NCBI RefSeq assembly: GCF_025629245.1
Contig: NZ_JANZXN010000014.1
Coordinates: 376-64,375 of the forward strand
DNA from: Natronobiforma cellulositropha
GTDB lineage: Archaea > Halobacteriota > Halobacteria > Halobacteriales > Natrialbaceae
Length of the DNA stretch: 64,000 bases
Direction: 5' to 3'
Both the position numbers and the translations under genes were made by a program. Shown piece after piece: positions 32,027 through 34,176 of this stretch (position 1 is the first letter of the stretch; every line of letters begins with the position of its first letter). The notes beneath the pieces were generated by a model. It did not search any database and was not told the DNA's origin. It worked only from the letters and a program-made list of their open reading frames with translations.

Positions 32027-32045
32027 AGAGAAAACAAGGCGAGTG

Positions 32046-32066
32046 CCTCGGGGCTTGACCCCGAGG
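32046..32066. repeat. Left-end hairpin of the IS605-type element
   Basis: Perfect 8-bp stem CCTCGGGG / CCCCGAGG with loop CTTGA, 19 nt inside the inferred left boundary. Identical to the right-end hairpin and in the same orientation. Confidence 0.8.
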
Positions 32067-32079
32067 GTGAAGCCGACAC

Positions 32080-32586
32080 TTAGACGTGTTCTGTCCGCTC
32101 GATGTACCGCTCAATCGTTTCTGTTGAGACTGTTCCTGCCGTTCCGATGTAGTACCACTGTTCCCAGAATCCACCACCCCACAGATACTCCTCCAAGAAC
32201 GACTCGTGCTGTTCCCACATCTCCCGCGCCGTGATGCTCTTGACAGTTCGTACAATCTCGCTCGGGGCGTGTCGTTCGAGAATCTCTGATTCTCGTGATG
32301 ACGAAAGACTTCGTCTTTCGAACCACTTCGGATGGGCTGACAAGAACAGGTGTACGTGGTCGGGTGAGATGTGGAGTCGTTCGAGAGACACAGTCTCTCG
32401 TGATCCCGAAAATCTACGATTTTCGGACGACGACAGTATCCCGTAATCGTACTCGTCGCACACGTTGCGAAAACTCGCTTCCAGCGAATCCTCGATGGGT
32501 TCGAGAATCGAGTGGCGGTATTTCGGACACCACACGAAGTGGTAGTTGACGTTGTACACCGTGTGATTCGACCGCTTCTCGCCCAT
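32080..32586 (-). CDS. tnpA: IS200-type Y1 transposase TnpA carrying two in-frame palindromic inserts
   Basis: A 168-residue HUH transposase. It starts MGEKRSNHTVYNVNYHFVWC, has the metal-binding HUH pair in SPDHVHLFL, and ends with the helix STETIERYIERTEHV that should hold the nucleophilic tyrosine. IS200-type TnpA proteins are usually about 130-135 residues. Here two inserts of 18 residues each are present: residues 53-70 (reading SSENRRFSGSRETVSLER, just before the HUH motif) and residues 89-106 (reading FERRSLSSSRESEILERH). Both come from copies of one palindromic element, and subtraction gives 132 residues. The inserts flank the active site, so activity is doubtful. Confidence 0.88.
   Translation of the reverse strand: MGEKRSNHTVYNVNYHFVWCPKYRHSILEPIEDSLEASFRNVCDEYDYGILSSSENRRFSGSRETVSLERLHISPDHVHLFLSAHPKWFERRSLSSSRESEILERHAPSEIVRTVKSITAREMWEQHESFLEEYLWGGGFWEQWYYIGTAGTVSTETIERYIERTEHV
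32269..32322 (-). repeat. Palindromic insert, copy A (inside tnpA)
   Basis: A 54-bp in-frame insert of two perfect 19-nt hairpins (stems of 8 bp, loops of 3 nt) at 32277-32295 and 32302-32320, joined by a 6-nt spacer TGATGA. Stems are CGAGAATC/GATTCTCG and CGAAAGAC/GTCTTTCG. It is in the opposite orientation to copies B and C. Read in the tnpA frame it adds 18 codons without a stop. Confidence 0.85.
32377..32430 (+). repeat. Palindromic insert, copy B (inside tnpA)
   Basis: A 54-bp insert with hairpins at 32382-32400 (CGAGAGAC/GTCTCTCG) and 32407-32425 (CGAAAATC/GATTTTCG), spacer TGATCC. The outer flanks TCGTTCG and CGGACGA extend the overall dyad. The stem has compensated changes relative to copy C (both arms carry GAGAGAC/GTCTCTC instead of GAAAGAC/GTCTTTC), so pairing is preserved. 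Confidence 0.85.
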
Positions 32587-32639
32587 ATCGAACCCACTCC
32601 ACCAACACAGTTAAGTATATCCAAAATATATACATAGGT
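32587..32639. promoter_or_regulatory. Divergent promoter region between tnpA and the DUF2080 gene
   Basis: A 53-bp AT-rich gap holding TTAAGTATATCC and AAAATATATACATAGG. These supply TATA-like boxes for the two divergent units, so both transcripts would have short leaders. Confidence 0.5.
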
Positions 32640-32795
32640 ATGGTGAATCGCTTTGAAATCGACGGCGAGGAAGTTCTCGACGGTGAGGTCAAACCGTTCG
32701 GGAACAGTGCCCACGTCACCGTTCCTAAACGCTGGCGTGGGGCCGACGTGAAAGTCGTCCGAACCTCAGAACCCGCCAAACAAGACGAAGAATGA
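32640..32795 (+). CDS. DUF2080-family transposase-associated protein
   Basis: A 51-residue protein, MVNRFEIDGEEVLDGEVKPF then GNSAHVTVPKRWRGADVKVV. The VKPFGNSAHVTVPKRWRG core is the mark of DUF2080 proteins, small AbrB-like accessories carried next to tnpB in haloarchaeal IS605/IS1341 elements. They probably bind DNA and may control transposase expression. Its stop codon overlaps an ATG (32792-32794) that is the likely original start of tnpB. Confidence 0.85.
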   Translation: MVNRFEIDGEEVLDGEVKPFGNSAHVTVPKRWRGADVKVVRTSEPAKQDEE

Positions 32796-32826
32796 CAGGC
32801 TCACAGGCTCACAGGCTCACAGGCTC
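32795..32826 (+). repeat. Four perfect 8-bp tandem repeats at the tnpB start
   Basis: ACAGGCTC repeated four times, directly after the ATG at 32792-32794. Because 8 is not a multiple of three, copy number sets the tnpB frame. With four copies the ATG frame ends after 24 codons at TGA 32864-32866. With two or five copies ATG would read straight into tnpB, beginning MTGSQAL and reaching VKTLDFQLNIQSDN. Confidence 0.9.
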
Positions 32827-32879
32827 TCGTCAAGACTCTGGACTTCCAACTCAACATCCAGAGTGACAACAAGAGCCTG

Positions 32880-34013
32880 TTGTACGACGCCACGCTCGAA
32901 GCCCGCTCGGTGTACAACGAAACCATCCGTCTCGCCAAAGAAGGTGTGGACTGGAATACGATTCCCGACCGCGTGGCAGACGACGCCAACCTCGTGAAGA
33001 ACACGACTCAGCGCGTTGTCGCCAAGGCTCTCGGAGCGATGGAGAACTACTACGAGTACGACGACTTCGGGCTCCCGAGCCACACCAAGGACGGTGCGTA
33101 CCCGCTTCGTGCGAACTACGAGGAGGGGTACAATTTGTCGCTCACCGACGATGGCAACGTGGCGTTCCGAATCAGCGCGAAACCGTACAACCACGTCAAG
33201 GGCGTCCTCGAAGGGAGTGACGCTCACCTCGATATTCTCCAGACCGCACTCGAAAGTGACGAGTGGAAGATTGGGACGGCGGAGGCCCTGTTCCACAACG
33301 ACACTCCTGAGTTGCACGTCAACGTCACCAACACCGGACAAACAGTTCGGGACAAGCAGGACTCACGGACGGTTGTCGGCGTGGACGTGAATGAGGACAA
33401 CGTGGCTCTCACCGCACTCTCCGAGGGTGGCGTCGAGGACTCGTTGGTCATCGACTTCCCCGAAATCAAGTTCGAGCGCCACCGCTACTTCACGATGCGG
33501 AAGCGCGTGCAGAACGCCGGGAAAGACAGCATCCACGACACGTTGGAAGGGCGCGAAGAACGGTTTGTCCGCGACCGACTCCACAAGGTATCTCGGCACA
33601 TCGTGGAGTGGGGCCAACAGTTCGAGAAGCCGTGCATCGTCTTTGAAGACCTCAAAGAGATGCGCGACAGTATCGACTACGGCACGCGAATGAACCGACG
33701 CTTGCACCGCCTCCCGTTCCGCGCCCTACAGTTCTATACGTCGTACAAGGCGTCGTTCAAGGGCATCCCGACCTCGTGGATTGACCCTGCGTACACGAGC
33801 CAGCGGTGTCCGATGTGCGGACATACGGAACGTGCGAACCGTCACAAGAAGCGGTTCAAGTGCAAAGACTGTGGTCATCAAGACCACAGCGACCGTGGTG
33901 CAAGCGTTAACATCGCCGTGAAAGGCGTGAAGAAACTCGATTGGAATGTGCCTGCTCTCAACAGTCTTCCCGTTGTTCGGAAGGTGTCGTTCGAAAGACG
34001 GAGTCTTTCGTGA
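32880..34013 (+). CDS. tnpB: TnpB RNA-guided nuclease, out of frame at its start and truncated at its end
   Basis: A 377-residue open frame from TTG 32880. The in-frame sequence just upstream (VKTLDFQLNIQSDNKS) is the normal TnpB N-terminal strand but has no start codon, because of the 8-bp repeat tract. RuvC residues look intact: Asp in VVGVDVNED, Glu in IVFEDLKEM and Asp in HSDRGASVNIA. The zinc finger (RCPMCG, KCKDCG) is also present. The frame stops at TGA 34011-34013, which lies inside palindromic insert copy C. Without that insert the frame would continue from codon CGA 34041 to TAA 34134-34136 and end RGYQADGRMGVSD. TTG initiation is possible but would drop the first strand; the gene may be off in this strain. 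Confidence 0.85.
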   Translation: MYDATLEARSVYNETIRLAKEGVDWNTIPDRVADDANLVKNTTQRVVAKALGAMENYYEYDDFGLPSHTKDGAYPLRANYEEGYNLSLTDDGNVAFRISAKPYNHVKGVLEGSDAHLDILQTALESDEWKIGTAEALFHNDTPELHVNVTNTGQTVRDKQDSRTVVGVDVNEDNVALTALSEGGVEDSLVIDFPEIKFERHRYFTMRKRVQNAGKDSIHDTLEGREERFVRDRLHKVSRHIVEWGQQFEKPCIVFEDLKEMRDSIDYGTRMNRRLHRLPFRALQFYTSYKASFKGIPTSWIDPAYTSQRCPMCGHTERANRHKKRFKCKDCGHQDHSDRGASVNIAVKGVKKLDWNVPALNSLPVVRKVSFERRSLS

Positions 34014-34040
34014 TCACGAAAATCTTCGATTTTCGGACGA
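33987..34040 (+). repeat. Palindromic insert, copy C (inside tnpB 3' end)
   Basis: A 54-bp insert (18 codons) with hairpins at 33992-34010 (CGAAAGAC/GTCTTTCG) and 34017-34035 (CGAAAATC/GATTTTCG), spacer TGATCA. It sits between a GTG codon and CGACGGCAG. The reading frame on both sides is the same, but the spacer TGA is read in frame and stops tnpB. Confidence 0.87.
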
Positions 34041-34147
34041 CGACGGCAGGCATCGGGGGCTGTGGACGCCCCGACCGTGACCCGCCCGACCGTTCGAGGC
34101 TATCAGGCCGATGGTCGGATGGGAGTGTCCGACTAAACCACGGGAAG

Positions 34148-34168
34148 CCTCGGGGCTTGACCCCGAGG
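34148..34168. repeat. Right-end hairpin of the IS605-type element
   Basis: Same 21-nt hairpin as at 32046-32066 (CCTCGGGG, CTTGA, CCCCGAGG), 8 nt before the inferred right boundary at 34176. In tnpB elements this region also forms the 3' end of the guide RNA scaffold, with the guide read from the flanking host gene. Confidence 0.75.
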
Positions 34169-34176
34169 CAGTTCAC

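Follow-up and report, generated by a model that had tools for sequence, protein, structure and literature searches.

The window that we analysed, a 64,000-nucleotide stretch of DNA from Natronobiforma cellulositropha, contains an IS605-type element that is bounded by a palindrome at its left end (32045..32067) and another at its right end (34147..34169). Both palindromes are uninterrupted, and neither is assigned a strand. At other loci, the left-end palindrome is a landing site of the same double-hairpin element that is inserted in this window, and the right-end palindrome is occupied by that element in L269, L246, L232, L242, and L281. The tnpA gene (Y1_Tnp, PF01797; 32080..32586, minus strand) is a 168-aa open reading frame that retains the HUH motif as HVH and includes two inserts, copies A and B. 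The tnpB gene (Cas12f1-like_TNB, PF07282; 32792..34013, plus strand) has a frameshift near its start, at an 8-bp tandem repeat, and is cut by a third insert, copy C.

Copy A, a 54-bp segment on the plus strand at 32272..32325, belongs to a canonical subfamily with the arrangement TCGTT-hairpin-TGATGA-hairpin-AACCA, and its hairpins lie at 32277..32295 and 32302..32320, also on the plus strand. Copies B (54 bp, 32377..32430; hairpins at 32382..32400 and 32407..32425) and C (54 bp, 33987..34040; hairpins at 33992..34010 and 34017..34035) belong to a symmetric subfamily that is characterized by a TGATCA spacer and GTCGTY/RACGAC ends, with B having the TGATCM form of the spacer and a GACGA end. 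The spacers read TGATGA in A, TGATCC in B, and TGATCA in C. Copies A and B are in frame in tnpA, and C lies in tnpB. As described in a first-pass annotation of this DNA, each of the three copies consists of two perfect hairpins, with 8-bp stems and 3-nt loops, joined by a 6-nt spacer. The coordinates given there for B and C are exact, while those for A (32269-32322) are off by 3 nt. The accompanying description of A as inverted relative to B and C holds only weakly: members of this near-symmetric subfamily score about equally on both strands, so the orientation of B and C is barely defined and no strand is assigned to either copy or to its hairpins. When folded as ssDNA, A, B, and C form stronger structures than their dinucleotide shuffles, with z values of -3.1, -4.4, and -2.9, respectively.

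The 8-bp repeat at the beginning of tnpB (ACAGGCTC) is present in four copies after the start codon (32792-32826). The tnpB genes of relatives have at most two copies (41 nt, compared to 57 nt in the window), and the extra repeats shift the reading frame. Judging from its sequence, the tnpB of the window is therefore probably either inactive or subject to phase variation. At the other end of the gene, copy C falls in the final 190 nt of the IS (33987-34169). This is the region that we presume to encode the TnpB guide RNA scaffold, and copy C may therefore alter that RNA.

Insertion sites and their empty counterparts

Alignment of tnpA genes reveals that both tnpA sites are empty in relatives, where they read ATCCGAAG^CACGCCCCG at site A and ATACTGTCG^CTCCACATC at site B. 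In this alignment, inserts A and B are each exactly 54 nt long and nothing is duplicated. Likewise, site C is empty in about 24 tnpB relatives, where it reads GGTG^CGACGG. All three insertions are at G^C junctions. A chromosomal intergenic locus is filled in genomes G060 and G061 and empty in G065 and G056. No target duplication was found at any empty site, whether in tnpA, in tnpB, or at the intergenic locus. The first-pass annotation had calculated that tnpA without its inserts would encode 132 residues, and the TnpA proteins of relatives are exactly 132 aa long. It had also stated that C places a TGA codon in the tnpB frame, and the TnpB proteins of relatives that lack C end in ...RGYQADGRMGVSD. 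Relatives with uninterrupted sites for A, B, and C thus confirm that the segments are inserted and not ancestral, and local duplication within this element does not explain them. The unit is dispersed, of an insertion type, and duplication-free. Because the empty sites are exact, the process of insertion is testable.

The copies in tnpA and tnpB could conceivably be old parts of a single IS605 lineage that are carried along with the IS and are not independently mobile. In favour of this, about 20 tnpA genes, which come from several families, have B-site inserts whose stems are nearly identical, and inserts are also present at the A site of Natrinema and Haloquadratum. We regard such an origin as quite improbable. 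Filled and empty copies are interleaved on the tnpA tree, near-identical sisters differ by B, and copies of the same family are found at unrelated intergenic sites, one of which has an empty orthologue. On a tnpA tree computed without the insert columns, the presence of B requires 10 changes, of which at least 5 are forced by supported branches. L365, which has B, and L392, which does not, differ from one another at 2 nt in 399, and the tnpA of the window differs at 4 nt from that of G047, which has neither A nor B. The B insert has recently and repeatedly been gained, precisely lost, or exchanged between IS copies; its patchy distribution could also come from precise excision or from recombination among IS copies. 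Such recurring gain or loss at a single tnpA codon amounts to a natural assay for movement and excision. Copies outside of IS elements may be mostly old.

A dispersed family of double hairpins

The consensus of the family is TCGTT-hairpin-TGATGA-hairpin-AACCA, with stems that are usually 8-11 bp long and loops of 3 nt, and nearly all copies have a length of 54-66 bp. Family variants may also have TGATCA as the centre and RACGA as the right boundary. Across 142 distinct copies, the unpaired TCGTT, TGATGA, and AACCA segments hardly vary, whereas the stems do, with changes that are compensated. The compensated stem changes that had been noted in the window are borne out among the dispersed copies, in which there are 45 double-change cells compared to 16 in shuffles. 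The loops flip and change freely (GAA/TTC, GGA/TCC, AAA/TTT), and a comparison of the B insert among 17 tnpA copies reveals almost invariant stems and hypervariable loops.

A covariance-model search, which had been put forward as a check on the original description, finds 13 distinct copies in the 3.76-Mb genome (E below 1e-4). Among 61 genomes from the same taxonomic family, 55 contain copies, with roughly 1-14 per sampled genome. Within the order, 57 of 81 sampled genomes contain a strict sequence pattern, whereas it is present in 0 of 312 genomes from the rest of the phylum; as a control, the reversed pattern produced zero matches. The symmetric TGATCA subfamily, to which B and C belong, is also dispersed in Haloquadratum. 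Every significant match among plasmid records is haloarchaeal, viral contigs yielded a single match, and phage records yielded no match.

Within a copy, the two stems are in effect always different. Identical stems would be expected in 11.9 of 169 copies and in 4.3 of 108 distinct stem pairs, and none was observed in either set; the first six stem nucleotides are shared in 2 of the 108 pairs, compared to 19.9 expected. With respect to targets, the logo indicates a preference for CGNNG^CG, and 11% of target sites are situated in inverted repeats whose arm length is 8 or above, compared to 2.7% of control sites. IS605-end palindromes harbor 9 of 101 unbiased copies, for example at GCCTCGGGG^CTTGACCCCGAGGC, the palindrome that is uninterrupted at both ends of the window's IS605 element.

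Conserved unpaired segments, strong folding, a mostly intergenic location, and the resemblance of GTGATGA to a C box are features that might also be expected of host regulatory or RNA elements (a terminator, RNA stabiliser, operator, or C/D-type RNA) that are conserved for their function. Such a role is very improbable, however, since flanking genes (17 convergent, 36 tandem, 9 divergent) are oriented as in control gaps, tnpA, tnpB, and kinase-like genes all harbor copies, the empty sites known from tnpA and tnpB are clean, and an Rfam scan of the region produced nothing near a cut-off, let alone above one. Terminator-like placement was rejected because flanking orientation does not differ from the control, and a C/D-box RNA was rejected because there is no D box and the TGATCA subfamily has no C box.

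MITEs share their terminal inverted repeats with an autonomous transposon and are often flanked by a target duplication. The double hairpins have no target duplication, and their ends are unlike those of the host IS. They resemble in kind the REPINs, or REP-BIME doublets, that accompany RAYTs in bacteria (PMC3116915): both are short, dispersed, non-autonomous palindromic doublets whose unpaired tags are conserved, whose stems change in a compensatory manner, and which may fold as a clover. The paired inverted units with their conserved tags are seen here in 142 copies. Unlike REPINs, the haloarchaeal element is archaeal, always has two differing stems, and, within the sampled family, numbers only about 1-14 copies per genome. 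In place of a GTAG tag beside the palindrome, its tags are TCGTT, TGATGA, and AACCA, and no dedicated RAYT-like gene was found that would correspond to the cognate RAYT/Y1 with flanking REPs.

The CGTC-tagged REPs, to which Rickettsia palindromic elements have been linked (PMC3733652), are similar in having 8-9 bp stems, head-to-head dimers, a CCA-like tail, heterodimers that are favoured in some families, no associated transposase, and, in some species, insertion in palindromes. The haloarchaeal element differs from them in that it has no unpaired CGTC (the CG is within the stem), its loops are 3 nt long as opposed to 4-5 nt, and its centre is TGATGA; a text search of the same paper (PMC3733652) found no haloarchaeal member. 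The first-pass annotation knew of no described haloarchaeal counterpart, which is incorrect in part: SMR-A of Haloquadratum walsbyi (PMC3119063) is similar in its described behaviour. SMR-A is likewise haloarchaeal, produces no target duplication, is enigmatic in its mobilisation, and inserts into near-terminal palindromes of IS605-type elements and PATEs. However, it is about 110 bp long, commonly has >95% identity within a type, and was described in one species (PMC3119063), whereas the present element is 54-66 bp long, has variable stems, and spans the order. The present family may account for part of the transposon-attacking repeats reported in Haloquadratum.

REPINs, CGTC-tagged REPs, Rickettsia palindromic elements, and SMR-A each have a defining feature (tags, size, or associated transposase) that the present family does not share, and we therefore place it beside them and not within any of them. 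No description of the core sequence was found in the open-access literature, and the family is, as far as we found, new for archaea. It is likely that the double hairpins constitute a family of haloarchaeal mobile elements that are very short and non-autonomous and have two different perfect hairpins, and a REPIN-like non-autonomous element is the best reading of them. By analogy with REPINs, the unit would be recognised as a ssDNA clover fold in which two independent hairpins bring the ends together, and this fold may be what selection maintains. The hairpins would be kept different because identical stems could merge into one long hairpin. The differing-hairpin rule thus points to recognition as a clover and not as a long hairpin, a question that is shared with the heterodimers of bacterial CGTC REPs.

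Insertions within coding sequences

We identified 8 distinct intragenic events, of which two are in tnpA, one is in tnpB, two are in kinase-like genes, and three are in other genes. All 8 have a length that is a multiple of three, compared to 73 of 156 other copies (47% expected; p about 0.003), in a small sample of 8 events whose intragenic calls were made with a heuristic GC3 test. The element is found inside genes almost only at frame-keeping lengths, and the original proposal of a dispersed palindromic element that tolerates in-frame coding insertion is upheld. The in-frame copies in histidine-kinase-like genes (L072, 6246; L142, 7143) lie beside a repeated VEHGST motif.

L107 encodes an intact 167-aa TnpA with copy A and another palindromic insert. 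Its copy A differs from that of the window at 2 nt, both of which are synonymous, such that the same peptide is encoded; one of the two breaks a stem pair. The B site has an in-frame TGA in 13 of 20 copies and GGA in the other 7. In the window, the spacer of copy B is read as GGA, which leaves tnpA open, whereas most relatives have the TGA stop. Copy C truncates TnpB in every filled relative except L246. Tolerance of coding insertions is thus not universal, as B and C bring an in-frame TGA in most relatives. Readthrough or splicing across the TGA in tnpA was considered, since the downstream protein sequence is conserved, and was dropped because the insertions are recent and interleaved with empty copies.

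In a predicted model of TnpA, the fold is kept and the inserts form low-confidence loops, with a modest overall pLDDT of 60. Surviving coding copies would be read as hydrophilic peptides of 18-22 residues in loops; one insert-encoded peptide in TnpA is WFERRSLSSSRESEILER. Rickettsia palindromic elements likewise insert in frame in protein-coding genes and add a peptide (PMC10969869), but they are about 150 bp long as opposed to 54-66 bp and are unrelated in sequence, and the haloarchaeal copies are mostly intergenic or in transposons. Coding insertion of palindromic elements, known mainly from Rickettsia until now, is thereby extended to archaea.

Candidate mobilising enzymes and other double-hairpin inserts

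The first-pass annotation suggested that the element may be mobilised by TnpA itself, in which case the Y1/HUH transposase of IS605 would move the double hairpins in trans, the role that RAYTs are presumed to have for REPINs. Paired hairpins and the absence of target duplication match the established chemistry of IS200/IS605 (PMC3116915), copies are present in IS605 genes and end palindromes, and the element count has a weak positive correlation with Y1 transposases (rho 0.29). Nevertheless, Y1_Tnp (PF01797) was undetected in 14 of 61 genomes, several of which are 98-100% complete and element-rich (G025 has 21 model hits, G011 has 18, G017 has 13, and G016 has 12), and the element is absent from some Y1-rich genomes, such as G120 (6 Y1) and G111 (4 Y1). 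In addition, the end hairpins of IS605 are unlike those of the element, and no TnpA recurs as a neighbour of copies; when recurrent neighbours were considered as the mobilising enzyme, TnpB was the only transposon gene found to recur beside them. Given that Y1_Tnp is undetected in element-rich complete genomes and present where the element is absent, the TnpA of IS605 is unlikely to be the driver, and the suggestion is left unsupported.

For the REPIN-like element that we favour, movement would instead occur in trans by some enzyme, most likely a hairpin-recognising single-strand nuclease of the HUH type, and IS605 elements would serve as preferred landing pads and vehicles. A bolder version, which we offer tentatively and hold to be doubtful, is that the family acts throughout this archaeal order as a hyperparasite of IS605, homing again and again to fixed positions in tnpA, in tnpB, and in the end palindromes. 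Its hairpins would then have to differ for the clover to form, and a non-Y1 enzyme would move it.

Other palindromic inserts are found in the same genes. A second double-hairpin element, unrelated to the first and 51 nt long (GCAAAGC..GCTTTGC-GTACCTC-GCGGGATC..GATCCCGC) is present in the tnpA of many relatives, where it keeps the frame; it lies at tnpA codon 22 in L107 (4745), L203 (1456), L211 (1315), and L127 (1591). An element of the present family is nested in a hairpin of the 51-nt element in L196. A third double-hairpin type (CACAAGAGC..GCTCTTGTG-CAGCC-..) is recorded in L219 (near 1794) and L232, at copy C's tnpB site in G047 and G091, and units like it are found in L315, L342, and L161. 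L384 and L383 share a frame-keeping 45-nt insert that starts with TGTCGTCAATCGGA at tnpA position 57.
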